DNA of 64,000 nucleotides from Solobacterium sp. (GTDB lineage: Bacteria > Bacillota_I > Bacilli_A > Erysipelotrichales > Erysipelotrichaceae). The position numbers and the translations under genes were made by a program. Shown here piece by piece: positions 37,811 through 55,857 of the stretch (its first letter is position 1; every line of letters starts with the position of its first letter). The stretch spans positions 62,001 through 126,000 of the forward strand of contig JAFUCL010000075.1 in assembly GCA_017459725.1 (NCBI GenBank), in the 5' to 3' direction. The notes under the pieces were generated by a model, which had not been told where the DNA came from, ran no database searches, and saw only the letters and a list, made by a program, of their open reading frames with translations.

Positions 37811-38836
37811 TCAGTGTCTGTTTACGACTCTGCGGATACCCTTGTAAAGCCCGCCGGCATTGTTTTTGACCGATGAAAGAACCGTATATACACGGACGAG
37901 TCCAACCGGCCCGAGCTTCAGCAGCTTCTGAAACAGTTTCGTATATGTTCCGGCCGCATGTCCCTTCTTAAGCATCTCCGCCGTATCCCCGGTATAGATG
38001 TTCTTCTGCACCTCTTCAATCTTCTCCTGCAGGCTGAGCGGACACTGCGGTGAAAACAGATTCAGCACATATACTTCATACTCACTGAGCATATAATCCG
38101 CATAGACCGGATCATTGCTTCTGCCGTAAGCCTCCAGCATCTCCCCCAGCGCCTGTTCCTTGCGCTGCAGATTGCCGTATCCGTCACTGAGATACCGGGT
38201 GACCATCGTCTCCCGGGCTCTTTTTTCATAGTGGTACAGCTGGGTGCCGATACTGATGACGGAATTGATGCGCGGGAAGACATGGCAGTTGAAGATGAAG
38301 TCCTGTCCGGTTGTCTTCATGAGCGGGAAGTCATGATGCCCCCTTAACAGATCAGCCCTGTACACCTTGTTCCAGAGCAGATTGAACGAACCGGTGTCCC
38401 GGATGAAATCCACGGCTGCCGCAAATGAATCCCTGTAGGTCTTATCCTGCAGGATGCGGTCAACGGAATAGTTTTCCTCCACGAAATCAATCCAGTATCC
38501 AAATGCCAGCAAGTCCGGTTTCCTTGCCAGGTATACAGCCAGAAGATCCAGCGCCCCTTTTTCAAGCCGGTCATCCGCATCCGCAAACATAATATAATCC
38601 CCGGAAGACTTCTCAATCCCGGCATCCCTGCTCAGGGAATTGCCGCGGTTTTCCTGATGGAACACCTTTACGCGGGAATCCTTTGCGGCATAGCTGTCCA
38701 GGACCTCCCCGCTGCCGTCCGTGGAACCGTCATTCACTGCCACCACTTCCAGGTCTGTTTGATTTCCGAGAATACTGTCAAGACAGCGCCCGATCACATC
38801 GGCAGCGTTATATACGGGAATGACTACACTGATCAT
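37811..38836 (-). CDS. GT2 family glycosyltransferase
   Basis: A 341-residue GT-A enzyme: MISVVIPVYNAADVIGRC, AVNDGSTDGSGE, NRGNSLSRDAGIE and FADADDRLEKGALD (the DxD region, about 91-104). The NRGNSLSRD variant replaces the NGGLSDARN loop of the sibling enzymes, so the acceptor pocket probably differs. It is the last gene of the 43591-37811 operon, overlapping the flippase by 4 bases (ATGA), with AAAGGAG ahead. Confidence 0.92.
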   Translation of the reverse strand: MISVVIPVYNAADVIGRCLDSILGNQTDLEVVAVNDGSTDGSGEVLDSYAAKDSRVKVFHQENRGNSLSRDAGIEKSSGDYIMFADADDRLEKGALDLLAVYLARKPDLLAFGYWIDFVEENYSVDRILQDKTYRDSFAAAVDFIRDTGSFNLLWNKVYRADLLRGHHDFPLMKTTGQDFIFNCHVFPRINSVISIGTQLYHYEKRARETMVTRYLSDGYGNLQRKEQALGEMLEAYGRSNDPVYADYMLSEYEVYVLNLFSPQCPLSLQEKIEEVQKNIYTGDTAEMLKKGHAAGTYTKLFQKLLKLGPVGLVRVYTVLSSVKNNAGGLYKGIRRVVNRH

Positions 38837-40140: not shown

Positions 40141-40141
40141 G

Positions 40142-41296
40142 CTATTCCTCCACCACGCTCCAGGCTTCGCACTTCTCCGTCTCAAAGACCGTGATATACG
40201 GATAGTCCGCAAGTGTCATATCCGCATCATAGAACTTATTGAGACGGCTGATCTTGAAGCTCATATCCGCATACAGCAGATATCCGTGCAGCAGAATAAC
40301 CGCCAGCACACCGACTGCCTTTTTACGCCAGTCTTCAATCGCGTCAAACAGTGCCGGCAGAAGAATCACAAAGACCATCTGCCACATATCGGTAATTCTC
40401 GAAGCCTGCGGATACATGCATACGGCCATGTAGAAGATAAAACCGAACACAATGACAATGACCTGGAAATGATCAAAATCCTTCAGTTTCGAACGGTCAG
40501 CCCACCAGTACAGAATCCCCGTCATAAGCAGGAATACCCCCTGCATACCAATGCCCATGATGCTGAAGGACTGCTGCTGGAAGTAGATCGAGAAATGACG
40601 CAGAAAAGCAGGCATGGCTTCCTCAGGCACACCCGGCAGGATTCTGCCGACCACGATAAAGCAGGCCGCCGCAGCCGCACAGGCACACCCGGCCCAGATA
40701 TATTTATGCTTCATGATGGAATGTCTGAAGATATGCAGCGGAATCAATGGCAGACCGAAAAGCGCCGTATCATGGATCAGCGCCGCCAGCAGACAAAACA
40801 CTGCATACCAGAAATACTCTTTCCTGCGCAGATGATTATAGAAAGCATAAAAGAAGATCATCATGGCAAGACACTGTCTTACACCGGATGAATAATATAC
40901 TTCGAGAAGACCGCCGCCGACAAAGATCAGCGCACTGAGCAGGTATGATTTGCTGTACTTCCGCACCACCGCCGCAAAGATCAGCAATGATACGCAGTTC
41001 AGCACCAGCACATACATCGGATATGTTTTCACCAGATGCCTGAGTCCCCAGGTAATGATGATAAACAGCTGGTTGCGCTTCACTTCCAGCGACTTCACCA
41101 TCTCAATGATGTCATCCGCATACGTGAACATCAGCTCATACTGGCCGGTATCCGGACCAAGATTAAAACGCACCGCAAAAAAGACCAGCAGTGCAATGCA
41201 GATCAGTATTCCCGCAGACTTTGTCACCCGGCTGTGTCTGATAATGTCTGCCGCCGCAAACAAGGCCAGCACGCCGTACAAAACAAAAATGTACAT
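40142..41296 (-). CDS. EpsG-like polysaccharide polymerase
   Basis: A 384-residue polytopic protein with about 11 hydrophobic segments. Diagnostic EpsG features are RFNLGPDTGQYELMF (40-54, the conserved G-D-Y/T motif), YYSSGVRQCLAMMIFFYAFYNHLRRKEYFWYAVFCLLAALIHDTALF and the arginine-flanked SGVRQ. Such proteins act as Wzy-type polymerases in Bacillota exopolysaccharide loci. GAAGGAA lies upstream of the start. It sits directly before the flippase gene, giving a flippase-polymerase pair. Confidence 0.9.
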   Translation of the reverse strand: MYIFVLYGVLALFAAADIIRHSRVTKSAGILICIALLVFFAVRFNLGPDTGQYELMFTYADDIIEMVKSLEVKRNQLFIIITWGLRHLVKTYPMYVLVLNCVSLLIFAAVVRKYSKSYLLSALIFVGGGLLEVYYSSGVRQCLAMMIFFYAFYNHLRRKEYFWYAVFCLLAALIHDTALFGLPLIPLHIFRHSIMKHKYIWAGCACAAAAACFIVVGRILPGVPEEAMPAFLRHFSIYFQQQSFSIMGIGMQGVFLLMTGILYWWADRSKLKDFDHFQVIVIVFGFIFYMAVCMYPQASRITDMWQMVFVILLPALFDAIEDWRKKAVGVLAVILLHGYLLYADMSFKISRLNKFYDADMTLADYPYITVFETEKCEAWSVVEE

Positions 41297-41309
41297 GTAT
41301 ACGTTTCCT

Positions 41310-42383
41310 TCAGAATTTATTCAGGGCTTCCGCGAAATCCTGTGCCATGTGCGCATAATCATATTCCGCAATGCCCGCAAACGAACGCTCTCCTTCTGCC
41401 CTGCACAGTTCCGGATCATCCGCTCTCTTCTGCAGCGCAGCCGCAAGCGCCCCGGCATCACCGACCGGCACGATCTCACCGCATTTGTTTTTGCCGACAA
41501 GTTCCAGCGCCGCCACACAGTGATCGGTTGATACAACCGGCAGGCCGAATGACATTGCCTCATTCACGACAAGTCCCCAGATATCATATCGGGTAGGCAG
41601 AACAAATATATCCGCCGCCGCATAGTGCTCATCCAGAACATCCCTGCTCAGGAACGGCAGAAAATACACTTTCGCTCCGGTCACTTCCGCAGCTGCTTTC
41701 CGTACTTCCGCTTCCGGCTGTCCCCCGATAATATAGAGACCAATATTCCCGTGCACCTGCTTCATCGCTTCCATCAGGATATCAAATCCCTTCCGGTGAA
41801 TCGGCTGTCCGACGGACAGGATCATGATGTCTTCCCTGACCTGCAGCTCCCTGCGCAGCTCTTCTTTCCTCTCACGCATCGCCCTGTTCTGTGCCAATTC
41901 TTCGGTGGAAGCACAGGCAAAACGGTAATGCATCATCTTCTCGGGATTTACCCTGTAATATGAAAAATACCGGTCTGTGATTTCCCCTGAGCTGAGAAAA
42001 CCGTCATGGCTCTTCATGACTGCACGGATCAGAAGATCCAGCGGTCCTCTCGGTACGGCAAGTCCGCCGTCCGCGTGCATGATCACCGGTTTCTTATACT
42101 TATGAAACATCCGCACCGCATACCGGGCAATCTGTTTTGTATAGTCCGAATCAATCAGAATATCGGCGTCTTCAGCAGCCTGTCTGATCACGGCACGGCT
42201 GTCGGTTTCCGGCAGATACACCGCTTTGAAACCGTCCGTACTGTAGTCATACCACTCCGCATTGCGGTCCTTTTCTGCTCTTGTTTCAAACAGACATGTC
42301 AGTTCGGTATACTTGCCGAGTTCGGACATGAAGGCAACCTTATACGGAGCCGGCGCATTGGACAGCCATACCACTTTCTTCAT
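41310..42383 (-). CDS. GT4 family glycosyltransferase
   Basis: A 357-residue GT-B enzyme. The N-terminal domain begins VVWLSNAPAPYKVAFMSELGKY. The donor domain has ILSVGQPIHRKGFDILMEAM, LYIIGGQPEAEVRKA, VYFLPFLSRDVLDEHYAAADIFVLPTRYDIWG and the E-x7-E region VVNEAMSFGLPVVSTDHC. It overlaps the upstream GT4 by 4 bases and precedes the polymerase gene. It would add an alpha-linked sugar to the unit handled by the EpsG/flippase pair. Confidence 0.93.
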   Translation of the reverse strand: MKKVVWLSNAPAPYKVAFMSELGKYTELTCLFETRAEKDRNAEWYDYSTDGFKAVYLPETDSRAVIRQAAEDADILIDSDYTKQIARYAVRMFHKYKKPVIMHADGGLAVPRGPLDLLIRAVMKSHDGFLSSGEITDRYFSYYRVNPEKMMHYRFACASTEELAQNRAMRERKEELRRELQVREDIMILSVGQPIHRKGFDILMEAMKQVHGNIGLYIIGGQPEAEVRKAAAEVTGAKVYFLPFLSRDVLDEHYAAADIFVLPTRYDIWGLVVNEAMSFGLPVVSTDHCVAALELVGKNKCGEIVPVGDAGALAAALQKRADDPELCRAEGERSFAGIAEYDYAHMAQDFAEALNKF

Positions 42384-43591
42384 AGCGCAATGCCTGTCTT
42401 TCTGCTGTAAAGCGCACGGTATGCCGCAAGCATATTCTCTTCCGTAAACTTATGTGCCTGCTGGATGCAGCGGCGGCGGTCAAAGGTCAATTCACCCTTC
42501 TGCATCTGCCCGACAATCTCCATGATCCGCTCAAGATCTCCCTTTTCCGCAATGGCACCGGTCAGAGGAGACAGCGACTCCGGAGAACCGCCGGTATTGT
42601 ATGTCACAACCGGCAGACCGCATGCCTGGGCTTCAAGATTCACGGTCGGGAACGTATCCTGATAGGTCAGATTCAGCATCACATCCGCTGCCGAATAAAT
42701 ACCCGCAAGCTCTTCCACACTGTCTGTATGCGATACACAGACCGTATTCACACCGGTAAACAGACGCTTCTGCGCCTCGCTTACACCAACAATAACAAGA
42801 TTCTGTCCGCTCTTCAGATTCTGCGACAGTCTCACTAAATCATCCAGACCTTTTTCCTTGGTCCAGCTGCCTGCCACGGCCAGAATCACAAACTGTTTCT
42901 CAAGACTCTCCTTTTTACGGAAACCGGTCTCCACCGGTTTGAAACGGGAAAGATTGATACCGGTATGGATGGTCTCAGCAGGATACTTGCTGAGGAAGCT
43001 CTCCCGGACAAGTCCTTCCAGCCAGAAAGACGGTGTAACGATCGTCATCTGACTTTCCGGAAGACTACCGAACACTTCCTTCTTCCTGGCATAGTTCTTC
43101 TTTACACCAAAGGGATTGAAGGTCGGGGGATACTGGCGCAGAGCACTGCAGTGCTCACAGCCTGTCTTCCACTTATCACAGCCGATGCCGTCAAAATGCG
43201 CACAGTGTCCGGTAAACGGCCAGCAGTCGTGGAATGTCCATACAACCGGAATCCCCGTCCTGCGCAGCCAGTCAAAAAGAACCTGTACGTTCAGATAATA
43301 TCCATGCAGATTATGAAGATGCACCAGATCGGGACGGAATGTTTCCAGATCCGTGATCATTTTTCTTGTTTCCTCAGCGTTGGCAAAGCCGTGCGCATCT
43401 GCCGCAAAGGTCTTCAGCGCATGTCTTACATTAGCGCCGAAACCCGAAATACGAAAAACATCGGCGTCGGTCAGGTTCTGCTTTCTTCCGTAGTAGATCC
43501 TTCCCTGCACCCCGGTCATGCCTGACAGCTGATATACGATACGTCCGGTACTGCCGTAGCCGGCAACCGAATTAATGAATGCAGCTTTCAC
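42380..43591 (-). CDS. GT4 family glycosyltransferase (WcaC/Bme6-like)
   Basis: A 403-residue GT-B enzyme beginning AAFINSVAGYGSTGRIVYQL, with HLHNLHGYYLNVQVLFDWLRRTGIPVVWTFHDCWPFTGHCAHF and a Cys/His cluster (CAHFDGIGCDKWKTGCEHC, about 134-152) typical of WcaC-like capsule glycosyltransferases and possibly metal binding. The donor domain ends in YQDTFPTVNLEAQACGLPVVTYNTGG. The start is GTG 43591, eight bases after AAGAGG. It is promoter-proximal in the 43591-37811 operon. Confidence 0.93.
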   Translation of the reverse strand: MKAAFINSVAGYGSTGRIVYQLSGMTGVQGRIYYGRKQNLTDADVFRISGFGANVRHALKTFAADAHGFANAEETRKMITDLETFRPDLVHLHNLHGYYLNVQVLFDWLRRTGIPVVWTFHDCWPFTGHCAHFDGIGCDKWKTGCEHCSALRQYPPTFNPFGVKKNYARKKEVFGSLPESQMTIVTPSFWLEGLVRESFLSKYPAETIHTGINLSRFKPVETGFRKKESLEKQFVILAVAGSWTKEKGLDDLVRLSQNLKSGQNLVIVGVSEAQKRLFTGVNTVCVSHTDSVEELAGIYSAADVMLNLTYQDTFPTVNLEAQACGLPVVTYNTGGSPESLSPLTGAIAEKGDLERIMEIVGQMQKGELTFDRRRCIQQAHKFTEENMLAAYRALYSRKTGIAL

Positions 43592-43686: not shown

Positions 43687-44217
43687 CTACTTGTACGGAA
43701 CAGCCGGGGTTTCGGGAAAGCTGTATTCGCCATCCAGCCACCCGAGCAAAAAAGCCTTTGCCAGGGAATTCTTTCGTATCTTCTCCCTTGCTTCTTCATG
43801 TGTGAACCATGCCCAGCTGTCCACTTCTTCGTTGTTGTGCGGTTCTCCCTTCACCCTGACCGTGAAATTCAGCATCAGCGTATTGGAAGGCGCATAGTAA
43901 TGGCTGTGGTTGAACTTCAGGGAGATCACCTCAAGGTCCATTTCTTCCTTCACTTCACGCACCACCGTGTCTTCGGCATCCTCGCCCTTGTTCACATAAC
44001 CGGCAACCAGAATGTATTCATCCCCGCCGTACTGCCGGATCATGAGTATCTTGTCTCCCGTTTCATTCTCCACGATCATGGATACACCGGTATTGAAGAC
44101 CGGAAAACGGAAGTCTCCGCAGGTGCTGCAGAAAGGAATCATCCCTTCGTTCTCCAGATATTTCGGTATGAGTCTGGTACCGCAGTGCATGCAGTAGTTC
44201 ATCTCAGGCAGTTTCAT
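43687..44217 (-). CDS. Nudix hydrolase with zinc ribbon
   Basis: 176 residues. An N-terminal zinc ribbon (CMHC at 9-12 and CSTC at about 30-33) is followed by a Nudix fold with the box GYVNKGEDAEDTVVREVKEEMDLEV (about 73-97). Its last Gly is replaced by Asp, but REVKEE is intact. The layout resembles a short NudC-type enzyme that hydrolyses NADH, ADP-sugars or other nucleoside diphosphate derivatives. It overlaps the PLP decarboxylase gene by 4 bases at the end of the ligase/carrier operon. It may clean up an adenylated or CoA by-product of that pathway, or simply ride along. Confidence 0.9.
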   Translation of the reverse strand: MKLPEMNYCMHCGTRLIPKYLENEGMIPFCSTCGDFRFPVFNTGVSMIVENETGDKILMIRQYGGDEYILVAGYVNKGEDAEDTVVREVKEEMDLEVISLKFNHSHYYAPSNTLMLNFTVRVKGEPHNNEEVDSWAWFTHEEAREKIRKNSLAKAFLLGWLDGEYSFPETPAVPYK

Positions 44218-45395
44218 ATGTTTTCCTCCGGACAGTTAAACGGGTTCAGCTGTATTCTTCTGCGCACACACCGCAGATCATCACCGCAGCTGATCCACAC
44301 TTCAGGCAGATCCCTGCTCAGCAGCATGGCAATGCCTTCACTGACGGAATATGCACCGCAGCGCTTAAAGACAAGAATATCCCCTGCTTTTGGATCACAC
44401 AGCGGCAGGTTTCTCACAATCACATCGGCTGTAGTGCAGAGAGAACCGCAGACCGTATACACTTCCGTATCCTCTGCACGCTCATCCGTGTACAGATGCT
44501 CATACGGAGGTATCTGCATCCCCTTCAGCTGGCCGTCATACTTGACCTGGTGAATACCGCCGTCACAGATCAGATAATTGATTCCGCCGCTGCTCTTACG
44601 GTCAGCGACAGAAGTCAGATAGTATCCGCATGGTGCCGCAAAGAATCTGCCCATCTCAATGGAGAGATGTGTCTTTTCCGCAAGACGCAGAAGTCCCACA
44701 GCAGCTTCCCGCAGCAGGTTCTCTTCAAGCTCTGCACCGTTTTCCTTGAAATACTCAATGCCGAAGCCGGTGCCGTATTCCACCATCTCCGCCGTATATC
44801 CGCATGTCTCACGCAGCTCATCCAGATACGCAGAAAGCATCTCCGTCTCATCAATTACTGTCTGCGCCTTTTTCTTCATGGTTCCGGTGAAATAGTGTAT
44901 ACCCGCAAAATGCACGCCCTGCCAGTTGTCTCTGTGGGCAAGAATATCCGTTACTTCACTGCGGTCCATGCCGAACTGACTGTCGCCGGCCAGACGCAGC
45001 AATACCTTCAGGGTATCCCCGCGCTTTACGGCTTCTGCACTGATGCGGGTAAGATGCAGAAGGCTTTCAGCAGTGATGTAATCAGCTCCATAGGCTGCCG
45101 CTTCCGCAATATCTGCAGCTGTTTTGTTCACGCCGGAAAAGATGATTTTCTTACCCGGAATACCTGTCCGCTTACAGATCTCAAGCTCACCCGGACTGCA
45201 TACTTCCACATGTGAAAAGACATCAGGAAGCACTGCCAGCAGAAACGGATTGGCCTTGATGGAATAGCAGAGATCAATCCCTTCCCCGAGCACGCTCTGT
45301 ACTAAACCGGCACGCGCTTTGAATTCATCCGCATCAAACACATACGCAGGTGTCTGCAGACAGGCTGCTGCTTTTTTCAGCGCATCCCTGTTCAT
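44214..45395 (-). CDS. Fold-type III PLP-dependent decarboxylase (LysA/BtrK-like)
   Basis: 393 residues with alanine-racemase-type barrel and C-terminal beta domain. The PLP lysine is Lys47 in CYSIKANP. EVCSPGELE, DSQFGMD (138-144), IHYFTGT (166-172), EMGR (247-250, phosphate loop, usually EPGR) and GSLC (317-320, the catalytic Cys from the partner subunit) followed by GAYS (347-350) are the marks of the DAP/ornithine decarboxylase group. It is coupled by 4-base overlaps to a carrier protein and a Nudix gene and lies two genes from an adenylating ligase. This is the arrangement of butirosin BtrK with BtrI and BtrJ, where BtrK decarboxylates a carrier-bound glutamyl group. A free amino-acid decarboxylase is the alternative; lysine biosynthesis is unlikely from context. 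Confidence 0.9.
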   Translation of the reverse strand: MNRDALKKAAACLQTPAYVFDADEFKARAGLVQSVLGEGIDLCYSIKANPFLLAVLPDVFSHVEVCSPGELEICKRTGIPGKKIIFSGVNKTAADIAEAAAYGADYITAESLLHLTRISAEAVKRGDTLKVLLRLAGDSQFGMDRSEVTDILAHRDNWQGVHFAGIHYFTGTMKKKAQTVIDETEMLSAYLDELRETCGYTAEMVEYGTGFGIEYFKENGAELEENLLREAAVGLLRLAEKTHLSIEMGRFFAAPCGYYLTSVADRKSSGGINYLICDGGIHQVKYDGQLKGMQIPPYEHLYTDERAEDTEVYTVCGSLCTTADVIVRNLPLCDPKAGDILVFKRCGAYSVSEGIAMLLSRDLPEVWISCGDDLRCVRRRIQLNPFNCPEENI

Positions 45396-45616
45396 TTCTT
45401 CAGCCGGTTGATCATCGCCAGCATTGCTTCGGCGGAATTGAAGTTTTCCGGCACCAGATCTGCCGGTTTGACGGTTACCCCGTAGTGCTCATCAAAAGCA
45501 CTGACGATGGCAATCATGTCAAAGGAATCCAGAATCTGATCATCGATCAGCGCAGTTTCACCGGCAAAATCCACATCCGGGCGGATCTCGCCGAGTACCT
45601 TCAGCAATTCTTCCAT
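45392..45616 (-). CDS. Acyl/aminoacyl carrier protein
   Basis: A 74-residue four-helix carrier. The phosphopantetheine attachment Ser31 lies in LDSFD, a DltC-like DSF variant of the usual DSL. Acidic helices surround it (IRPDVDF, SAFDEHYGV). It would hold the acyl or aminoacyl group activated by the ligase upstream as a thioester for the decarboxylase and the MBOAT. It starts two bases after the ligase stop and overlaps the decarboxylase start by 4 bases. No phosphopantetheinyl transferase is nearby. Confidence 0.93.
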   Translation of the reverse strand: MEELLKVLGEIRPDVDFAGETALIDDQILDSFDMIAIVSAFDEHYGVTVKPADLVPENFNSAEAMLAMINRLKK

Positions 45617-45618
45617 AT

Positions 45619-47127
45619 TTACTGTCCTTTCAGAATTTCTCTCAGTTTACTCATATCGGTCTTCCCGTTGGGAAGCTTTGGAATCTCTTCCAGCTGGGTG
45701 ACTTTGCGCGGCACCATAAAGGCCGGGAAGTCCTTACGGAACGCTTTGGCAATATCACTCTTCAGGGCCGTACCCGCATAGGCAAGACACAGTACTTCCT
45801 TCTCCCTGTCGTAATACGCATAGCAGCCCTCCACTCCGTCAATTCTACCGGCCGCACCTTCGATCTCATCGAGTTCAATGCGGTGGCCGAAATGCTTGAC
45901 CTGTCTGTCCATGCGTCCGTGGAACTCCAGCAGACCATCCTCACGGTATCTGCCGTAGTCACCTGTCCTGTACAGGCGCTTACCCGGATCACGGGGATCG
46001 GCGATATAGGACAATGCCGTGCGCTCGGGATCCTTGTAGTAACCGATGGTCACACCGGGACCGCCTACACAGATTTCTGCCGTTTCACCGGGTTCTGCTT
46101 CACTGCCGTCTTCCCGGCGCAGGAAAATCGTATAGTTCCGGTAAGGCACACCGATCGGCAGGACTTCATCTTCCGCCACAACATGATCCACTTCATAGTA
46201 TGTGCAGGAAGCGGTTGCCTCCGTCGGTCCGTACTGGTTGATAAATCTGGTACGTGGCAGATGTTCCTGGTACTGTCTCAGTACCTTTCCCGGCATCACC
46301 GAACCGCTGAAGAGAATCGTCTTCAGCTGCACGGGCAGATCCTCAGGCTTGCAGTCAAACGCCTTCAGTCTGGCCAGTGTTTCCAGACCGGCCGCACTCC
46401 AGCAGAGAATCGTCACACCATTGCGGATCAGCGTACGGAACAGCAAAGACGGCATCGCAAATTCCTTCTTCGGCAGGATCACCGTCTTACATCCGGTCAG
46501 GAACGGAATATAAATATCACGGATAGCGGCAATATAGTCAAGCGGTGCCTGGTTGCCGAGCACATCGTCTTCTTTCACATCAAGCACTTCACAGACCGCG
46601 TCAATGTAGTTCATCACGCTCTCCTGTCCGGTCAGCACGCCTTTCGGCACACCGCTCGAACCGGAAGTAAACAGCACATAGAGCGGATCGGAACCGTCAT
46701 AGTGCGCCGTACGGGCACGGATAACTTCTTCATCCGCCGTTCCTTCCGAGAGCTCTTCCAGTGACAGCAGTTTTCCGCTGTATCCGCATTCCTCCGCCGT
46801 CTTCCGGAATTCCGCATCGGTAATCAGCACTGAGGGATTCAGCAGACTGAGTATCTTACTGATTCTGGAAACCGGCATTTCACCGTCAATCGGTGCATAA
46901 TAACAGCCCGCATACACAATGCCCAGATACCCGGCAATCGTTCCCGTATGGCGTCCGGAAAGAATCGCAGCCGGCTCACCCGGTTTCAAATATGCACTGA
47001 GATTGGACGCAATCACCTTTGCTTTGCCCAGGATATCCTTGAAGGATACTTCCGTATCCCCATCAATATATGCCGTACAGCTGTTGTCCTTCTGCTTTTC
47101 CAGATAATCGATAATCGTTCTGCTCAT
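45619..47127 (-). CDS. AMP-forming adenylating ligase (DltA-like, A-domain family)
   Basis: 502 residues from the ATG at 47127 (GAGG seven bases upstream; a frame from 47160 adds 11 residues). Motifs in order: LFTSGSSGVPKG (A3), NQAPLDYIAAIRD (A4 region), INQYGPTEAT (A5), LYRTGDYG (A7), GRMDRQVKHFGHRIEL (A8) and LPNGKTD (A10). It activates a carboxylate as the adenylate and loads the downstream carrier protein. In amino-acid A-domains the A4 motif reads FDxSxxD and its first Asp binds the substrate amino group; here that position is Ile199. The substrate is therefore probably not a simple alpha-amino acid bound in the D-alanine manner. A TATAAT at 47159 may give this half of the operon its own promoter. 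Confidence 0.93.
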   Translation of the reverse strand: MSRTIIDYLEKQKDNSCTAYIDGDTEVSFKDILGKAKVIASNLSAYLKPGEPAAILSGRHTGTIAGYLGIVYAGCYYAPIDGEMPVSRISKILSLLNPSVLITDAEFRKTAEECGYSGKLLSLEELSEGTADEEVIRARTAHYDGSDPLYVLFTSGSSGVPKGVLTGQESVMNYIDAVCEVLDVKEDDVLGNQAPLDYIAAIRDIYIPFLTGCKTVILPKKEFAMPSLLFRTLIRNGVTILCWSAAGLETLARLKAFDCKPEDLPVQLKTILFSGSVMPGKVLRQYQEHLPRTRFINQYGPTEATASCTYYEVDHVVAEDEVLPIGVPYRNYTIFLRREDGSEAEPGETAEICVGGPGVTIGYYKDPERTALSYIADPRDPGKRLYRTGDYGRYREDGLLEFHGRMDRQVKHFGHRIELDEIEGAAGRIDGVEGCYAYYDREKEVLCLAYAGTALKSDIAKAFRKDFPAFMVPRKVTQLEEIPKLPNGKTDMSKLREILKGQ

Positions 47128-47158
47128 ATTTGCCTCACTTTGATGCTTCATGTGTTCC

Positions 47159-47164
47159 ATTATA
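47159..47164 (-). promoter_or_regulatory. Possible internal -10 before the ligase gene
   Basis: TATAAT on the minus strand, just after the stop of the DltD-like gene and 31 bases before the ligase ATG. It would let the ligase, carrier, decarboxylase and Nudix genes be expressed apart from the MBOAT half. Confidence 0.4.
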
Positions 47165-47169
47165 CAGTG

Positions 47170-48504
47170 TCAGCGGTAATTGCGTACGGTCTGTGTATAA
47201 TACCGCACGGCACTTTCCCCTTTGACCCTTGCTTCAACACGGATATCCCATGTCCCGGTTCCCGGCTGGATGCCGCAGGCATCCGCAACCGAAAAGTCCT
47301 TTACGACCGTCCATTCTTCCGTACCGCTTTCCCGGATCAGATACCGGTATTCGCATTCCACATTACTGCCGGTCCATGCAAAAGCCTGGATCAGATATCC
47401 CTGGGAAGCTTCCTTCAGGTCAAAATCAACACTGCTTATTGTCTTGATTGACGCAAGATACGCTTCCGGAGTCCGGAAGAGATCTTTGTATCCGCCGCTG
47501 CGGAAATACGGAATCAGCTCAGCCAGCGAAGCCGAGAATACCTCAGCACCGTCATAGCAGAGATGATCATAATCATGGTAGTACTCCTCTTTTGCCTCAT
47601 ACAGCTCCGGCACGGCCAGACTGAAATCGACATACGGCACTTCATATTCCGCAAACAGGTCTTCCAGCACCTGCATCTTCTCGAAATACCACGGTCCGTA
47701 GCTCACTACGTCAAACACCGGCTTCGGTGTATTCACCACATACAGCCGCACATCATTCTCACGGCACATCCTGGCAATGTCTTTCAGCGACTGCAGCGCC
47801 GGCGGATAGAAATCCTCGTTGAAATAACCGATGGATGTCTTTTTGCCGACATCGTTGTAGTCAAGCATACCGTCGTAGGCCTGGAAGCCGCTGTTGTAAT
47901 ACCGGGATGTCGGTGAGTGTATATTCAGGGATTCTGACGGTGCAGTCCCTTTGATCTTCTCAATGACATTCTTGATGATTTCGGTTGGACGCAGGAAGGT
48001 ATGATTGACCGACCACGGTGCCCAGCAGGACAGCGCTTCCGCCGTACGGAAATGATCCCGGGTCGAGAAGAAGCGCAGATCCGCCCTGATATCGTCAAGC
48101 AGAGGCACGGCATCCTTGTACGCCGCGTTGAAGGCAATCTGTGAAGCAAGACTCTGCAGGTTGCCGAGCGAACTGTAGTTCACCGCATACACGATCTCCT
48201 TGGGATGCTTATACCGGATCAGATACTCCACCAGCATGGCCGTGCTTTCGGGAGACTGTCCGGCCGTACCGGCATTGTATACGGATATACCGAGCTTCTC
48301 CGCAAGAATACCCGGATCGATATTCATCTCGGCAAGCGAAGAGCCGACAATGACCATATCAATATCATCCCGCTCCTGCAGTTCGGTAAAGGTAATACGC
48401 GCCGATCCATAGTTCGGGGACAAAACAAAATCCATGGCCTGGTTGCACAGAACGACTGCACACACCGCCAGCAGCACCTTCAGCAGTTTCCTAGAAATTC
48501 GCAT
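47170..48504 (-). CDS. DltD-like SGNH acyl-transfer protein
   Basis: A 444-residue membrane-anchored extracytoplasmic protein. One N-terminal helix (about 5-25) precedes the SGNH domain with IVGSSLAEMNI (nucleophile Ser near 53), NAGTAGQSPES and the C-terminal YDHLCYDGAEVF carrying the Asp/His pair. After about residue 360 comes a beta-sandwich module with YRYLIRESGTEEWTVVKDF and a W-D-I-R-V stretch, like a three-tyrosine or fibronectin-type carbohydrate-binding domain. It should take the acyl group delivered by the MBOAT protein and place it on the polymer. Start is ATG 48504, after AGGAGG; it overlaps the MBOAT end by 14 bases. Confidence 0.87.
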   Translation of the reverse strand: MRISRKLLKVLLAVCAVVLCNQAMDFVLSPNYGSARITFTELQERDDIDMVIVGSSLAEMNIDPGILAEKLGISVYNAGTAGQSPESTAMLVEYLIRYKHPKEIVYAVNYSSLGNLQSLASQIAFNAAYKDAVPLLDDIRADLRFFSTRDHFRTAEALSCWAPWSVNHTFLRPTEIIKNVIEKIKGTAPSESLNIHSPTSRYYNSGFQAYDGMLDYNDVGKKTSIGYFNEDFYPPALQSLKDIARMCRENDVRLYVVNTPKPVFDVVSYGPWYFEKMQVLEDLFAEYEVPYVDFSLAVPELYEAKEEYYHDYDHLCYDGAEVFSASLAELIPYFRSGGYKDLFRTPEAYLASIKTISSVDFDLKEASQGYLIQAFAWTGSNVECEYRYLIRESGTEEWTVVKDFSVADACGIQPGTGTWDIRVEARVKGESAVRYYTQTVRNYR

Positions 48505-49969
48505 ACATGAAACCTCCTGCTTCCGCCGCAAACGGGAAAGCCATCAGCACCAGCAGCGCACAGAAAAGATACAGACAAAGACGCAGAACCGCCGGTTTCT
48601 TCAGCAGTCCTTCGCGCACATCCACGCCTCTTTCCTGCAGAAGACTGACCACAAACACAATTAACAGAGCCACCGCCGCAATCATGTAATTCTCTCGCCG
48701 GTAAGGAATCTGGTAAATCAGAATATCCCCGGCAAAGGCAGAGGCACGGAATCTGGTGAAGGTATTGCGCAGACAGATGAATGAATCACGCACATCGGTG
48801 ATGGCATCAAAGTACCAGCCGATATTGACAATAATGAAAGTACGCAGCGTACGGAACAGACGTATCCCCGCGCCCTTCTTCGGCAGGTTCACCTTCCTGT
48901 ACAGAGGCGCCATACAGTCACTGACGGCAATCACCAGACCGTTGAACAAGCCCCAGACCAGGAAATGCAGATCCGCCCCATGCCACAGACCGACCAGGAA
49001 GAATACGGCAATATTGGCAGCCCCTGCCGGCAGTGAACGTGACCACTGCATGCCGAACTTCCTGCGCAGATGCTGGGTCCATTTCCGCATGGGTTTGGAC
49101 AGAGCCAGCGGATAGAACACATAATCCTTCATCCAGGCGCCGAGCGAAATGTGCCACCTGCGCCAGAAATCCGCAAGACTCACCGCAAAATACGGCTGCC
49201 GGAAGTTTTCACTCATCTCTATGCCGAACAGCTCCGAAACACCCATGACCATATCAATGCCGCCGGAGAAATCCGTATACTGCTGAAAGGAATACACCAG
49301 AATACCGAACACAACCACACATCCGGAAATATCCCCGTCCACCTGTGTGAAGATATGGGAAACGGTAGCTGCCAGCATATTCGCAACCGCATACTTCTTC
49401 AGCACACCGTAGCCGTACCGCATGAGACCTTTGCGGAAGAGCCGGCTGTCAAACTTACGGCTTCTGAAGAACTGCGGTGCCATGGCGCCGAAGCGGTTGA
49501 TCGGTCCCTGCAATAACTGCGGAAACCAGCTTAAAAACAGCAGGTATTTCCAGAAGCTTCCGGCCGCCTCCTGTTTCCCGTTGTATGTATCAAGGAGATA
49601 GGAAACGGACTGGAATGTATAGTACGAAAGACCGAGCGGAATCACCCATCCCGACCAGCGTCTGAAAAGACCGGTATATTTAAACAAACCGAGAATCAGG
49701 AAATGCAGCAGAAGCACTCCCACCATGACCCTTTTCTTATTCTCTGCGGAAACACCGGGTTCTGCGAAGATATGCGACGCACGGTAACATGCCGCCGAAA
49801 CAGCCAGCAGAAAGACCACATACGGAAGCCCTGCCCAGGTGTAAAAGAAAAGACTCGCGCACAGCAGGATCACCCACTGAAAACGCGGGAAGAGTTTTTC
49901 CGCCGCGTAATAACAGATCAGCACTGCCGCAAGAAACAGCAGAAACTGCATTGAATACAGCTCAGGCAT
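48491..49969 (-). CDS. MBOAT acyltransferase (DltB/AlgI family)
   Basis: A 492-residue polytopic enzyme with about 11 membrane segments. Signatures: LGLSYYTFQSVSYLLDTYNG, FPQLLQGPINRFG, QQYTDFSGGIDMVMGVSELFG, DFWRRWHISLGAWMKDYVFYPL and VGLWHGADLHFLVWGLFNG with the catalytic His. In DltB this protein receives D-alanine from the DltC carrier and transfers it outward. Here the neighbouring ligase, carrier and decarboxylase suggest a different aminoacyl or acyl donor. Start overlaps the acetyltransferase stop (TAATG). Confidence 0.95.
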   Translation of the reverse strand: MPELYSMQFLLFLAAVLICYYAAEKLFPRFQWVILLCASLFFYTWAGLPYVVFLLAVSAACYRASHIFAEPGVSAENKKRVMVGVLLLHFLILGLFKYTGLFRRWSGWVIPLGLSYYTFQSVSYLLDTYNGKQEAAGSFWKYLLFLSWFPQLLQGPINRFGAMAPQFFRSRKFDSRLFRKGLMRYGYGVLKKYAVANMLAATVSHIFTQVDGDISGCVVVFGILVYSFQQYTDFSGGIDMVMGVSELFGIEMSENFRQPYFAVSLADFWRRWHISLGAWMKDYVFYPLALSKPMRKWTQHLRRKFGMQWSRSLPAGAANIAVFFLVGLWHGADLHFLVWGLFNGLVIAVSDCMAPLYRKVNLPKKGAGIRLFRTLRTFIIVNIGWYFDAITDVRDSFICLRNTFTRFRASAFAGDILIYQIPYRRENYMIAAVALLIVFVVSLLQERGVDVREGLLKKPAVLRLCLYLFCALLVLMAFPFAAEAGGFMYANF

Positions 49970-50493
49970 TATTCATCCTCCGGAAATCTGCGGCGGATCA
50001 CCCTGGCCGGGTTGCCGGCTGCGATCGTATACGGAGGCACATCCTTTGTCACCACCGAACCGGCACCGACAACAGCACCTCTGCCGATTGTCACACCCTT
50101 GAGTATCACAGCATTGGCCCCAATCCAGTTATCCCCTTCAAAAACTACATCCTGATCATCTTCCGGACGCTTGTCCTCCGCCTTTACTTCATCCAGCAGT
50201 TTTCCCTTGATGTCCGTACGGTGATTGCCGGTCACGACCGTTACCCGCGGACCGAACATCACATGGTCACCGACGATGATCTTCGCAGCTGCGGAAAGAA
50301 ACAAAGACTCGCTGCCGAAGGAAACGTGGCTGCCGACTTCCATGTTCTCATAGGAAAAGGTATTTCTGTATCCGGTGCTGACATCCTCACCGCATCTGGC
50401 AAAAAGCTGCTTAGCCCAGGCCGAGCGGATCTTCACACCGAGATTCCTGCATTTCCATCCTGCTTTATATAACAACTGTGCTGGTTTCATCAT
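49969..50493 (-). CDS. Hexapeptide-repeat O-acetyltransferase (WcaF/NodL type)
   Basis: 174 residues. A left-handed beta-helix is visible as repeats such as [31 protein letters not shown] and [50 protein letters not shown]. The catalytic His lies in TGNHR. It transfers acetyl from acetyl-CoA to a sugar or lipid-linked saccharide in the cytoplasm. It overlaps the upstream GT4 by 4 bases and the MBOAT start by one. This cytoplasmic acetylation is distinct from the membrane MBOAT step. Confidence 0.94.
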
Positions 50494-51629
50494 ACTGACC
50501 TCAGATTATGCAGGAATTCATCCACGGTCTCCGCATACCTGCGGTAATCGAACGCTTCGCAGGCCGTCTGTTTGGCACGCATCTGCATCGCCGTGATTTC
50601 CTGTCTTGATAATTGTAATACCTTTTCAATACATGCGGCTATGACTGCTTCATCCGTACTCTCTGCCACGACCGCATTGTCCATATCGTGCAGATACATG
50701 GCAAGATCGGAGGAATAATTCAGAATCAGCGGAATGCCGCAGTTCATGCTTTCAACACATTTGGTCGGGAAACCCGCTTTGGCATACACTGCCTGTGCAT
50801 CCCTGAAAAGAAACGTAAAGTCACACTGCTTCAGAATACGCAGGGTTTCCGCATGCGGCAGTCTTCCGTAGAACGTGCACAGCGATGCGGCTTCATCACC
50901 CAGCTGCGCCTGCTCGCGTGTCAGACCGACAAAATGAAACTCCGCCTTCCCTTCCAGCAGATCATGCGGCACACGTTCCAGGGCACGGAAAAGAAGATCC
51001 AGCCTGTCCTTGCGGCCCGGTGAACCCGCATAACCGAAACGCACCACATTGTTTGTACTGCGGTCCATAACGGTTTCCGTACTGTCGCACAGCACCGGAA
51101 TGCGCACCGTATGGCAGTTCTTACCGCTGAAGTAATCATGGAGATACGAGGAAATGGAAATAATATCCACCGTCTCATCCAGCAGCACCCGGTTCTGGTA
51201 ATCCTTTTTCTTAAAGCCGGAATCATCCGCCCCTCTGTCAAACTCTTCCGGTGAATACCACTCCACACAGTCATATACAAGACCGACATGATTCTGCCGG
51301 CAGTATTCCTTCACATACACAAGCGAATCATTCTCAAGATCCGACGCAAACAGCACATCCGGCTTATCCATCCTTCCAAGCAGTTTGCGAAGACGCCTGG
51401 TATACAGCTTCATGCCAAGGTATCTTGCCGCCGCGGATGTTCCGTTGACCTTCAGTGATTTATACGGAATGCCGCCGTATTCCTTCTCTTCCAGATATCC
51501 CGTCTTTCCGTTGGAAAGAATATACACTTCATGTCCCAATTCTTTGCACAGCTTCGCGAACAGATATACACGATGGGCCATGGCTGTCTCCTCAGGATAC
51601 AGCGCGGTTGTCAGAAACAGTATTCTCAT
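50490..51629 (-). CDS. GT4-like GT-B glycosyltransferase
   Basis: 379 residues. The N-terminal domain starts [40 protein letters not shown]. The donor domain has [55 protein letters not shown] and [16 protein letters not shown], where the second acidic residue of the E-x7-E pattern is shifted. It is a divergent GT4-like enzyme. Coupled by 4-base overlaps on both sides, it works in the same chain as the next GT4. Confidence 0.87.
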
Positions 51630-52906
51630 ATGTTCTCACCTGCCATTTCCCGATAGATCTTCACAAGATCCTCCGTATTCTCTGCCGGATCATACTGCAC
51701 AGCAGCTCTTGCCTTCTCCCGTGCCGAAAGTGCATCCGCATCTTCACCCATTGTAAAGATCCGCTTCACACTCTCCGCCAGTGCTTTTACATCCGCAAAC
51801 GGATACAGCAGGCCTTCCTTTTCGTGGCTCATAATCGAACGCATGCCGCCCACATCCGCCGCGCATACCGGTGTTCCCACAAGCAGTGCTTCACCGACGG
51901 AATTGGATGAATTCTCAATCGAAGACGGACATACGAATACATGAGTCAGCCGGTCTCTCTCAGCCATTTGTTCAGCATTCAGCGTGCCCAGGAAACGCAC
52001 ATGTTCACGCAGACCGTACCGGCGTATCATACGTCCGATATACTTCTGATAATACGTCTGATGCAGTGAAGCTTTGAAACCTGCGGCCAGGGGATCGCTT
52101 CCGGTCACATACAGCACCGCATCCGGATACTCTTTCAGAATCAGCGGCATGGCCTCCAGCATCTTGTGGAATCCCTTCAGCGGATAATAGCCCTGTGAAA
52201 CAAAGAGAGAATGCTTCTCACAGTCTTTGTAACACCATGCTTTTCCGTAAAACTCCGGTCTTAATGTTTCCTGGCAGTAATGATACTGCACATCCGGATT
52301 GATCCGCTTCGCTGCCGCCTTGTCCCAGTCCGTGCGGCCGATCACATGCTTCGCACCGGCAAGGGTTTTCTGTTCATAGACACCCCGCTGCCTGTACTCT
52401 TCCTGCTGGGCAAGGATCGAATCATGCTTGATGAAGTCACGGAACGACTGCGCCCTGCATACAGCATCCGGCAGATCTGCCTTGAAGCAGTCCCCGGCAA
52501 TCTCTGAAACCAATCCCTGAATACTGACGACCGTACGGTCACGGTATCCTTCCCTGATACATGCCTGCATCATCTCATACGAATACAGCCACTCGGTGCC
52601 GAAGATATGCACGATATCCGGTTCTTCACGGCGCAGAATCTCCGCAAACTTATCCGTTCTTCCTTCGCGCAGCTGCAGAGGACTGCTGAAATCCTCCGGG
52701 AAACCGCAGTAAGCATATCTGCCGGTATTTCCTTCACACCATTCCGGACGCACCGTCTGTGGGAAGACAACACACAGTTCGTTGTTCTCCGTCTTCAGAA
52801 GACCTTCGGTAATGCCGATGATCCATCCGCCCGTTGCCGAAGCACCCGTACCGAGCTCTTTGGCAATCTCCGGCAGAATAATATTGCACAGAATCAGTAT
52901 CTTCAT
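51626..52906 (-). CDS. GT4 family glycosyltransferase
   Basis: A 426-residue GT-B enzyme: ILILCNIILPEIAKELG, GGWIIGITEGLLK, IVHIFGTEWLYSYEMMQAC, then donor-domain LFVSQGYYPLKGFHKMLEAMPLI, LYVTGSDP, VRFLGTLNAEQMAERDRLTHVFVCPSSIENSSNSVGEALLVGTPV with E-x7-E. The start is ATG 52906 within the GAGGTACGGAA end of the upstream gene, overlapping it by 4 bases (ATGA). It probably extends the glycan that the later genes of the operon decorate. Confidence 0.93.
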   Translation of the reverse strand: MKILILCNIILPEIAKELGTGASATGGWIIGITEGLLKTENNELCVVFPQTVRPEWCEGNTGRYAYCGFPEDFSSPLQLREGRTDKFAEILRREEPDIVHIFGTEWLYSYEMMQACIREGYRDRTVVSIQGLVSEIAGDCFKADLPDAVCRAQSFRDFIKHDSILAQQEEYRQRGVYEQKTLAGAKHVIGRTDWDKAAAKRINPDVQYHYCQETLRPEFYGKAWCYKDCEKHSLFVSQGYYPLKGFHKMLEAMPLILKEYPDAVLYVTGSDPLAAGFKASLHQTYYQKYIGRMIRRYGLREHVRFLGTLNAEQMAERDRLTHVFVCPSSIENSSNSVGEALLVGTPVCAADVGGMRSIMSHEKEGLLYPFADVKALAESVKRIFTMGEDADALSAREKARAAVQYDPAENTEDLVKIYREMAGENI

Positions 52907-54471
52907 TTCCGTACCTCGTACAGAACACATCTGTCATTCTCAAACAGCACCGGGTATTTCTCATCCGCTGCCATACTGCGTATGCGCGCACCATCCTCAT
53001 CGAATACGGAAACCAGTATATAGTCACCCTGTTTCCAGAGATCCTCTCCGGAATCACACCAGAACGGCTTCACATCGCACATCAGCTCCAGCAGTCTCGG
53101 CTTGAAGAAGTATATCTCCGCCCCGGCCGGCACCGTTTCATCCACTGCTTTGTACATCTCCATCGCATCCGGTGAAAAAGCATAGTTTTCACGCTTGTCC
53201 GCACTGCGCATGTTCGGAATCAGGTACAGATCATACACCAGCATCACACCCAGCATTGAAATCAGAAAACCGCGCAGAGCCCTTCCCATTACCTCCGGCA
53301 TATGCGCAGAGATATGTCTGAGGGCTGCACAGGCATACAGCACAAAGAACGGAAACACAGGCAGCAGATACAGCACGCCCTGGAAGCCGTCAAACACCAT
53401 CAGAACACCCATCAGCACCACCGCATAGAAAGCCGGGAACACATCCTCTTTCCGCCGCAGATACATCCCGTAAAAGGACAGCAGCAGGAAAGCAAGCGTC
53501 AGAAGATGCAGAATAACCCGCCGCTCAAAATACCCGTACCAGTAATCGGTGAAGAACAGGCGGAAGACATTGAAATAGTCATGGAGATGGGTCAGGATCA
53601 TCTGGATATCCAGCTTGAAATATCCCCCGTAGCCTCCCTGTGAAGGCAGCAGGATCTTCACGGCAAGATAAATGATGACAAAAACGGCATACGGAAGCGC
53701 TCTTACAAACAGATCCTTTTTGTTTATCTCTGCCCGCTTTGCCGCAAGATCAGCCGCATCATACAGAAACATACCCACAAAGAGTGCAAGTGCCAGTGTT
53801 CTCTGCAGCACCGCCGCCGAAGCCGCCAGCCCGAACAGCACCGCTTTCAGCACGGATCTGTCCCTGAGATACCGGTCCGCCGCATCTACGGTCAGCACCG
53901 AAAACAGCAGACACGGCAGATTCGACTGCACATCGTTGATGCACTGCAGATACACCTGGTTCATGCCGCAGAACATCGTGCATACAAACGCTGCCGGAGC
54001 CGGAAACCTTCTCTGCATGATCAAAGCGAGCACAAACACCGACAGAACCAGACAGATCATTTCCGCTCCCTTGAAGGCAGCGATATTGAAACCGAACAGT
54101 TTATATACCGGCAGAAGCAGCAGCGGTGTTCCCCACGGATATGTCACCGTGCCAAGTCCGAACCGGGAATGCGAATATATGAAGTTGCTGCGGGCTAGCC
54201 ATTCTTCGGAAGTGCCTTCCGCAATCACCTGTGCCTGCCGGATATACTGGGCAAAATCATCACCCCATGTATGATTGTCTACCAGCAGCGGCAAAGCCAG
54301 CACCAGTGCAATCCCTGCCCAAAGCAGTGCATTCCGCAGCGGTCTGTCTCCGCAGAGCACTTTGGATACCCTGCCGGCAAGACGTCCCGGCCATGAAGAA
54401 AACAGGTACAGCAGCGTACCTGTCGCAAGCATGATATATACCAACGGCAGACTTCTCAGCACACTTCCCAT
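52903..54471 (-). CDS. GT-C family membrane glycosyltransferase (ArnT/PMT-like)
   Basis: 522 residues with about 12 hydrophobic segments and a short soluble C-terminal domain. The first outer loop carries NHTWGDDFAQYIRQAQ (the conserved acidic pair of GT-C enzymes), with FGLGTVTYPWGTPLLLLPVYKLFG and MNQVYLQCINDVQSNLPCLLF following. These features match lipid-phosphate-sugar transferases that act outside the membrane. It is the first gene of the large operon ending at the Nudix gene. The stop of the previous flippase and the -10 of this gene are adjacent. Confidence 0.83.
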   Translation of the reverse strand: MGSVLRSLPLVYIMLATGTLLYLFSSWPGRLAGRVSKVLCGDRPLRNALLWAGIALVLALPLLVDNHTWGDDFAQYIRQAQVIAEGTSEEWLARSNFIYSHSRFGLGTVTYPWGTPLLLLPVYKLFGFNIAAFKGAEMICLVLSVFVLALIMQRRFPAPAAFVCTMFCGMNQVYLQCINDVQSNLPCLLFSVLTVDAADRYLRDRSVLKAVLFGLAASAAVLQRTLALALFVGMFLYDAADLAAKRAEINKKDLFVRALPYAVFVIIYLAVKILLPSQGGYGGYFKLDIQMILTHLHDYFNVFRLFFTDYWYGYFERRVILHLLTLAFLLLSFYGMYLRRKEDVFPAFYAVVLMGVLMVFDGFQGVLYLLPVFPFFVLYACAALRHISAHMPEVMGRALRGFLISMLGVMLVYDLYLIPNMRSADKRENYAFSPDAMEMYKAVDETVPAGAEIYFFKPRLLELMCDVKPFWCDSGEDLWKQGDYILVSVFDEDGARIRSMAADEKYPVLFENDRCVLYEVRK

Positions 54472-54494
54472 TTCTTCGATGTTACTCCATGTGT

Positions 54495-54503
54495 ATCATA
54501 TCA
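54495..54503 (-). promoter_or_regulatory. Extended -10 promoter of the 54471-43687 operon
   Basis: TGATATGAT on the minus strand, where the TGA is also the stop codon of the upstream flippase. The leader before the ATG at 54471 is about 17-20 bases and includes a GGAG and a GAAGAA. Confidence 0.5.
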
Positions 54504-55853: not shown

Positions 55854-55857
55854 CCGA

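Follow-up and report, generated by a model that had tools for sequence, protein, structure and literature searches.

Why would a pyridoxal phosphate (PLP) decarboxylase be encoded in an operon that otherwise resembles the Dlt system of teichoic acid D-alanylation? This question is raised by a locus of Solobacterium sp. (assembly GCA_017459725.1, contig JAFUCL010000075.1), located in a stretch of 64,000 nucleotides (contig positions 62,001 to 126,000, forward strand) that was analyzed as a whole and is called the window here; coordinates below are window positions. The locus encodes a membrane-bound O-acyltransferase (MBOAT), an SGNH protein, an adenylation-domain (A-domain) ligase, a stand-alone carrier protein and the decarboxylase, a set hereafter called the cassette. 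We place at somewhat better than even the chance that these five genes form a carrier-dependent polymer acylation system, i.e., a Dlt variant whose donor arises through decarboxylation. For such a system, we infer the following substrate, order of steps and acceptor. The ligase would load the side-chain carboxyl of aspartate or glutamate onto the carrier, where the decarboxylase, acting in the manner of BtrK or VinO, would strip the alpha-carboxyl to leave an omega-aminoacyl thioester. The MBOAT would pass the omega-aminoacyl group from the carrier to the tyrosine of its own C-terminal FMYANF at the outer face, and the membrane-anchored SGNH protein would take it from this tyrosine to esterify a surface polysaccharide, most likely the polymer made by the Wzx/Wzy genes around the cassette. 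The outcome would be a positively charged substituent, as with D-alanine, but with the amine at the far end.

The genes at the locus are the following:
48491..49969, minus strand: MBOAT acyltransferase, DltB-like, 492 residues (PF03062, E 2.8e-20)
48494..48511, minus strand: FMYANF, the C-terminal hexapeptide of the MBOAT, an FXYXXF acyl-tyrosine shuttle motif
47170..48504, minus strand: SGNH protein, DltD/PatB-like, with an N-terminal helix and GxS and His motifs (predicted model, Foldseek)
45619..47160, minus strand: A-domain (ANL) ligase, 513 residues, with a type I pocket (PF00501, E 6.9e-55)
45392..45616, minus strand: stand-alone carrier, 74 residues, with phosphopantetheine Ser31 in DSFD (PF00550, E 2e-4)
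44214..45395, minus strand: fold-III PLP decarboxylase, 393 residues, with PLP Lys47 and Cys320 (PF02784, E 7.3e-19; PF00278, E 3.4e-12)
43687..44217, minus strand: Nudix hydrolase (PF00293, E 7.6e-17; nearest NCBIfam model NAD(+) diphosphatase, below its cut-off)
49969..50493, minus strand: hexapeptide acetyltransferase (PF00132; WbbJ- and WcaF-type matches below cut-off)

Adjoining cassette genes overlap or stand no more than 9 nt apart. The start of the SGNH gene is an ATG picked by reading, the listed open reading frame (ORF) beginning with TTG at 48531. An earlier, sequence-only reading of this DNA had described seven coupled genes within 43687-49969. All seven are present on the minus strand and the coupling stands, but only six lie inside that range, since the hexapeptide gene falls outside it (49969-50493). 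The same reading had joined a Dlt-like transfer set to a decarboxylase, and the five-gene set proved to be real and linked.

This linkage is conserved. A decarboxylase homologue at E 1e-30 or better was found in 10 of 59 relatives of the window genome, and the ligase, decarboxylase and MBOAT genes were adjacent in all 10. The carrier was present in nine of them, the tenth locus being at a contig end. SGNH was matched in seven, one further contig stops after the MBOAT, and in two more (L012 and L019) an unscored neighboring gene aligns with SGNH. A pattern scan of named genomes gave at least 560 decarboxylase relatives, of which the best 80 are the named loci considered below. Near the decarboxylase in these 80, a first count found the carrier in 78, the ligase in 74, the MBOAT in 66, SGNH in 55, the hexapeptide gene in 8 and the Nudix gene in none, while a wider protein set, on the same strand and within 7 kb, gave 78, 74, 65 and 56 for the first four. 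The Nudix and hexapeptide genes, which the sequence-only reading had counted as members of the set, were thus rejected as core genes (0/80 and 8/80); the hexapeptide gene probably encodes a sugar O-acetyltransferase belonging to the polysaccharide locus. Many of the missing partners are due to contig ends, and all five genes were present in 34 of the 37 named loci having at least 5.5 kb on either side of the decarboxylase, so that conservation beside MBOAT/SGNH pairs, on which the earlier reading had staked its case, was borne out. The five-gene linkage is far beyond chance and, as gene order varies among loci (ligase-carrier-decarboxylase-MBOAT-SGNH being the commonest), is more than a single frozen arrangement. 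Hosts belong to Ruminococcus, Lachnospiraceae and Coriobacteria and include Ruminococcus albus KH2T6 and AR67, Ruminococcus sp. YE71, Lachnospiraceae MC2017 and KH1P17, and Tractidigestivibacter scatoligenes; Pseudobutyrivibrio MD2005 is a host without MBOAT. In an even sample of the class, the decarboxylase occurred at E 1e-45 or better in 17 of 395 genomes, the window genome counted. The set is therefore widespread but patchy, and not a one-off.

What does the ligase load? By PheA position, given in brackets and used hereafter, its pocket residues are Asp208 (233), Ile210 (235), Ala211 (236), Arg214 (239), Ser285 (301), Gln309 (322) and Lys500 (517). In a gap-free alignment of the core motifs to DltA (3dhv), DltA residues Asp197, Leu198 and Cys269 correspond to Ile210, Ala211 and Ser285, and Met201 and Ser195 to Arg214 and Asp208. 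Asp197 is the amine contact of DltA, and Asp197, Leu198 and Cys269 bind D-alanine (PMC11253843). Since these contacts are replaced, D-alanine is disfavored as the substrate; its loading had been named beforehand in the sequence-only reading as an outcome at odds with the proposal, and the ligase residues argue against it. The pocket was read in 77 ligases adjoining the decarboxylase, which fall into three types. Type I (59/77, the window included) has Asp233, Ile235, Arg239 and Ser301; type II (15/77) has Asp233, Asp235, Lys239 and Ser301; and type III (3/77, namely L109, L110 and L113 of Oscillospiraceae) has Cys233, Asp235, Lys239 and Val301. A basic residue at 239, present in 77/77, would suit a second carboxylate on the substrate, and with Ile235, type I would lack the residue that customarily anchors an amine next to the activated carboxyl. 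As judged from these residues, the type I pocket argues against an ordinary alpha-amino acid. Ser301 matches Ser299 of VinN, and this serine and Arg331 have been proposed to bind the alpha-carboxyl group of the methyl-aspartate substrate (PMC7756342; position from PMC11253843). The AlphaFold model of the ligase (mean predicted local distance difference test [pLDDT] score, 90.5) has PheA, EntF and DltA as fold neighbors. Arg239 is presumably also the side-chain-loading code of ACVS, a code for which we found no text. Module 1 of ACVS adenylates the delta-carboxyl (PMC7147772, which confirms that point only).

The same class offers a natural control, namely sister operons that contain ligase, carrier, MBOAT and SGNH genes and no decarboxylase. 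A second set of 45 ligase places provided 30 stand-alone ligases of at least 473 bits (17 with and 13 without the decarboxylase), after 14 in long frames resembling nonribosomal peptide synthetases (NRPSs) and one of 271 bits (G039) had been left out. The comparison comprised 88 decarboxylase-linked ligases (the 77 of the named loci plus 11 of the second set) and 14 decarboxylase-free ones, 13 from L163-L175 and one from L132, whose genome also holds the cassette. Carrier, MBOAT and SGNH were all present in 11 of the 14 decarboxylase-free loci; of the other three, L164 (a short contig) and L170 show ligase and carrier alone, and SGNH went unmatched in L175. At 233, 13 of these 14 ligases have Tyr and one has Phe; at 301, nine have Ala, four Gly and one Val. 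The pocket thus co-varies with the decarboxylase, Asp233 and Ser301 occurring together in 85 of the 88 ligases with it (the other three being type III) and in none of the 14 without it, counts that are clade-level patterns from few independent events, as types I and II together make up a single split in the ligase tree. In a separate reading of 88 carriers, 76 have DS[LFIMV] and the remaining 12 have xS[FL]D. As a side observation, the decarboxylase-free ligases (L163-L175, L132) fall into distinct pocket classes. In one of these, YSM[STL]Y[LM]ALDIK (9/14), Asp235 is replaced by Ser, so the substrate may not be an ordinary alpha-amino acid there either.

The ligase tree (57 sequences) contains splits for type I (1.0), type II (0.972) and both together (0.95), whereas the MBOAT tree (48 sequences), in which several nodes are weak, has no split for type I, type II, both or the decarboxylase-free systems. 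For the window ligase, carrier and decarboxylase, the closest counterparts (51, 58 and 52%, respectively) are in type I loci of Ruminococcus and Clostridiales from the rumen, while the window MBOAT (46 to 47%) and SGNH protein (25 to 30%) are nearest to those of type II loci L125 and L130; in the MBOAT tree, the window sequence clusters with L125, L130 and L121 (0.999). From these similarities, the window cassette looks like a mosaic. The splits of the ligase tree, the mixing of the MBOATs and this mosaic indicate that the decarboxylase travels with the ligase rather than the transferase, as would be expected if ligase and decarboxylase share a substrate. These two enzymes, together with the carrier, look like a single donor module.

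Could the locus nonetheless be an ordinary Dlt system, which loads and transfers D-alanine and has by chance a LysA in its operon, making lysine from diaminopimelate (DAP)? The ligase, carrier and MBOAT do match Dlt models, but every one of these matches stays below its curated cut-off (DltA, 237.4 of 559.85 bits; DltB [TIGR04091], 163.9 of 375 bits; DltC, 22.8 of 68 bits), and the D-alanine contacts are replaced. The decarboxylase scores 163.6 bits against the LysA model, below the cut-off of 297.9, and its best solved match is BtrK (2j66, 7ru7; E about 2e-33), followed by SbnH and LysA (E 6e-24 or weaker). All 14 LysA proteins above the cut-off (8 from cassette genomes, 6 others) carry H[IV]GSQ, RxxLY and CES. 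These signatures are found in 0/11 aligned cassette enzymes, in which Lys47 and Cys320 are invariant and which have FxGT[QM], no arginine at the place of RxxLY, and C[ST]; BtrK has VYTGTQ at the first of these places and CTP at the last. Regular expressions applied to 91 cassette enzymes retrieved CES in 1 and R[PTSA]x[LM]Y in 0, and the PLP-lysine pattern in 88, G-x-x-F-x-GT in 85 and C[ST] in 84, the rest being possibly pattern misreads. Five further LysA-search matches were also aligned (L037, L039, L042, L048 and L051); in L037 and L039, GSQ is missing while RPAMY and CEN are present, and L042 (partial), L048 and L051 (both distant) were left out of the decarboxylase tree. In this tree of 47 sequences, 28 cassette decarboxylases form one clade and 17 LysA or LysA-like proteins another, each with an ultrafast bootstrap (UFBoot) of 100. 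A separate LysA above the cut-off is encoded in 8 of 11 cassette genomes, and G033, also a cassette genome, has a LysA-like gene just below it. G034 has no LysA besides the cassette enzyme, and among eight cassette-free genomes tested, none was found in two (G005 and G008); LysA loss and the cassette are not associated in the small genome set examined. The model cut-off, the missing signatures, the separate clade and the separate LysA in most cassette genomes together rule out LysA as the identity of the decarboxylase. The sequence-only reading had compared the reaction to that of BtrK, which is the best match in the Protein Data Bank (PDB). An ordinary Dlt system is thus very unlikely, even with the absence of another LysA match in the window genome and in G034 to its credit.

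Set beside Dlt (DltA, DltB, DltC, DltD and DltX), the cassette shares the A-domain ligase, carrier, MBOAT, SGNH protein and acyl-tyrosine transfer, including, by Foldseek, a DltD-type SGNH partner. It differs in its additional PLP decarboxylase, in the replaced DltA contacts and in bearing the shuttle motif on the MBOAT itself, where Dlt has it on the separate DltX; no DltX-like ORF was noticed in the gaps of at most 9 nt between the cassette genes. Given the D-alanine contacts, the cut-offs and DltX, the cassette is not a member of Dlt. The exosortase A-associated pair TIGR03098 and TIGR03099 has in common the ligase and the decarboxylase, for which TIGR03099 is the best NCBIfam match, but both fall short of their cut-offs (164.7 of 592.35 and 185.3 of 478.45 bits, respectively). 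That pair has its own setting and is not known to occur with MBOAT or SGNH. AlmEFG, which glycylates lipid A, is not known to include a decarboxylase and has a transferase different from that of the cassette. It also relies on an adenylation enzyme for envelope aminoacylation (AlmE: PMC11253843).

Enzymes that decarboxylate on a carrier are known from antibiotic biosynthesis. The sequence-only reading had taken BtrJ/BtrI/BtrK of butirosin as the closest architecture, with which the cassette has in common a carrier and a homologous decarboxylase, BtrK being the closest solved structure by sequence. However, BtrJ is an ATP-grasp ligase, unlike the ANL A-domain enzyme of the cassette, butirosin involves no membrane transfer, and BtrK lies outside the cassette clade. 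VinN/VinL/VinO (vicenistatin), FlvN (fluvirucin) and BolO/BolC/BolN (bolagladin, proposed) are closer and displace it, as they combine a free carrier and a PLP decarboxylase with an A-domain ligase acting on Asp or 3-methyl-Asp (PMC11284099, PMC7756342). Their product, unlike that proposed here, feeds a polyketide or peptide synthase, and no membrane transferase is involved. Decarboxylation of a side-chain-linked acidic amino acid on the carrier is described for butirosin, where BtrI-S-glutamate is converted to the gamma-aminobutyrate form (PMC7857480), and on-carrier decarboxylation also for vicenistatin and fluvirucin (PMC11284099), while it is proposed for bolagladin (PMC7756342). With its ligase, carrier and decarboxylase, the cassette has all three components and could deliver their product to a membrane relay of the Dlt kind.

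The order of the steps is where the main rival enters. The decarboxylase might act first, on free Asp, Glu, ornithine, lysine or DAP, after which the ligase would load beta-alanine or gamma-aminobutyrate for export by MBOAT and SGNH, with a similar product. The loss of Asp235 in type I (59/77) also suits an acid without an alpha-amine, and the co-inheritance of ligase and decarboxylase fits either order. In the decarboxylase tree, BtrK is placed toward LysA and SbnH toward the cassette enzymes, at a support of 78 in both cases, so the cassette enzymes are not recovered as sisters of BtrK. Against this order, a terminal ammonium group would be repelled by the basic residue at 239 (77/77), the cassette enzymes lack the LysA signatures, and the best matches, BtrK and SbnH, act on carrier-bound or citrate-decorated substrates (PMC7857480). 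In bolagladin, although a different system, a decarboxylase mutant was not rescued by beta-alanine feeding (PMC7756342). We consider decarboxylation before loading unlikely, at perhaps one case in five, and retain decarboxylation on the carrier as the preferred order.

The membrane half of the cassette is consistent with export of the group. The best PDB matches of the MBOAT are DltB structures (6bug and 8jem, E about 1.6e-24). An xxYxxF C-terminus is present in 56/56 complete MBOATs of the named loci, with the first Phe changed to Met in two; in other loci read, this Phe is sometimes Pro, Leu, Ile or Met. The acyl-tyrosine shuttle motif FXYXXF is used by PatA and supplied to DltB by DltX, and the window motif FMYANF compares with the FIYANF peptide of Neisseria PatA (PMC12148441). 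No Pfam or NCBIfam match was obtained for the SGNH protein at the thresholds used. In its AlphaFold model (mean pLDDT, 88.4; predicted template modeling score, 0.87), Foldseek places DltD (6pfx) first (E 1.9e-6, probability 1.00, overall TM 0.32 to 0.37), followed by GDSL-type acylhydrolases. G56, S58, H316 and G321 (residues counted from 48510) are invariant in 30 aligned SGNH proteins. The model has an extra C-terminal beta domain (residues ~358-442), possibly glycan-binding, which among the aligned proteins is common only to the three SGNH proteins of L130. At that locus (L130:5372-15949, Tractidigestivibacter scatoligenes), a single ligase, decarboxylase and carrier are surrounded by two MBOAT and three SGNH genes.

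PatA/PatB and other bacterial MBOAT-SGNH pairs likewise combine an FXYXXF-type MBOAT C-terminus with an SGNH acceptor transferase. PatA, however, uses acetyl-CoA, while the cassette encodes its own ligase and carrier, and this dedicated pair argues for a carrier-borne donor. One might still suppose that the omega-aminoacyl donor serves mainly a cytoplasmic or amide-forming transferase (acting on a glycosyl precursor, a lipid or a small molecule) and that MBOAT and SGNH transfer some other group, e.g., acetyl from acetyl-CoA as in PatA-type MBOATs (PMC12148441). The donor module does occur with other transferases. In L052:7225-13466 it adjoins two sugar-transfer-associated ATP-grasp genes instead of MBOAT/SGNH, with a TIR-domain gene upstream; in L123:11172-13254 it adjoins two acyltransferase-3 genes; and in five Oscillospiraceae loci (L109, L110, L113, L115 and L116) ligase, decarboxylase, hexapeptide protein and carrier are found with no same-strand MBOAT beside the module. 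In L115, an MBOAT lies near the module on the opposite strand. Yet MBOAT and SGNH accompany the module in 34 of the 37 long loci, and in 11 of the 14 sister loci without the decarboxylase, ligase and carrier stand together with MBOAT and SGNH in the fashion of Dlt, which makes separate donors improbable, at about half the weight we give to decarboxylation before loading.

Several observations weigh against side-chain loading, on-carrier decarboxylation and export as proposed here. The three remaining long loci (L052, L109 and L123) have ligase, carrier and decarboxylase without MBOAT or SGNH, and in L079 (Ruminococcus albus) an isocitrate dehydrogenase-type gene directly follows the set. By whole sequence, the ligase finds its best solved match in linear gramicidin synthase, in an NRPS domain that activates an amino acid (E 1.8e-87), with DltA next. 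Asp235, which usually binds the amine near the activated carboxyl, is kept in type II (15/77, plus all 11 decarboxylase-linked ligases added from the second set) and would make side-chain loading less obvious there; VinN likewise retains it. Type III ligases are accompanied by the decarboxylase without Asp233 or Ser301. Lys is found at 239 in 5 of the 14 decarboxylase-free ligases, and a basic 239 alone was rejected as a marker of decarboxylation on this ground. The beta13-beta14 loop that is one residue shorter in VinN, its hallmark, is not shortened in the cassette ligase, which shows no gap relative to DltA in the YGPTE segment; a simply VinN-type ligase was ruled out accordingly. The tree places BtrK outside the cassette clade, on the LysA side, with weak support. 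The window genome (G000, 94% complete) has no LysA-like gene besides the cassette decarboxylase, so a role of this enzyme in making lysine is possible. Finally, the acceptor is a guess from the gene neighborhood.

As for the group transferred, the sequence-only reading had suggested a gamma-aminobutyryl-type modification. This is kept as one candidate, but beta-alanyl, from Asp, is chemically easier and is the favored group. A gamma-aminobutyryl ester or thioester would tend to cyclize to the lactam, and no protecting enzyme was recognized among the cassette genes; for these reasons, beta-alanyl is preferred. We give an even chance to a broader proposal, in which omega-amino acid esters (beta-alanyl or gamma-aminobutyryl) decorate the polysaccharides of Bacillota and Coriobacteria from gut and rumen. 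In this proposal, Asp or Glu would be loaded through its side chain and decarboxylated on the carrier, Dlt-like MBOAT/SGNH pairs would export the product, and the trio of ligase, carrier and decarboxylase would serve as an interchangeable donor unit for MBOAT/SGNH, acyltransferase-3 or ATP-grasp partners. The parts are all of known kinds, whereas their combination, its conservation and the ligase code appear new; no account of an MBOAT/SGNH operon with a decarboxylase was found among the top-ranked matches in open-licence PubMed Central full text. D-alanylation is the best-studied carrier/MBOAT/SGNH route by which positive charge is added to surface polymers, and a DltA match above the cut-off was found in 0 of 11 cassette genomes. 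A parallel system of the kind proposed, with hosts among cultured rumen bacteria (e.g., Ruminococcus albus), could account for the tuning of surface charge without a model-grade DltA, and it predicts a glycan substituent to look for. In the loci read, the Asp233 and Ser301 code separates decarboxylating from plain MBOAT operons. The proposal would also link the starter-unit chemistry of antibiotics to that of the envelope.

The window itself is a large polysaccharide region, whose genes include flippases, an O-antigen-ligase-like protein, an LCP protein and a priming sugar transferase. Those flanking the cassette span 37811..43591 and, upstream of it, 50490..63989, and two further genes lie at a distance:
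37811-38836, minus strand: glycosyltransferase (Pfam)
38833-40212, minus strand: flippase (Pfam)
40142-41296, minus strand: Wzy-like gene (by reading)
41310-42383, minus strand: glycosyltransferase (by reading)
42380-43591, minus strand: glycosyltransferase (Pfam)
50490-51629, minus strand: glycosyltransferase (by reading)
51626-52930, minus strand: glycosyltransferase (by reading)
54501-55853, minus strand: flippase (by reading)
57164-58282, minus strand: glycosyltransferase (Pfam)
59719-60810, minus strand: polysaccharide dehydratase/epimerase (Pfam)
62655-63989, minus strand: priming sugar transferase (Pfam)
8414-9859: further flippase-like gene
20340-21914: O-antigen-ligase-like gene

The three flippase-like genes, with one O-antigen-ligase-like and one Wzy-like gene, suggest that at least two polysaccharide clusters stand side by side. 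Three DUF6056 membrane proteins are also encoded in this region (28442-30010, 33517-35295 and 61232-62641). Elsewhere, the MBOAT was read in two pieces in L014:3084-4616 and in L181, and the decarboxylase of L181 (G434) has an in-frame stop; these may be decaying copies or assembly errors.

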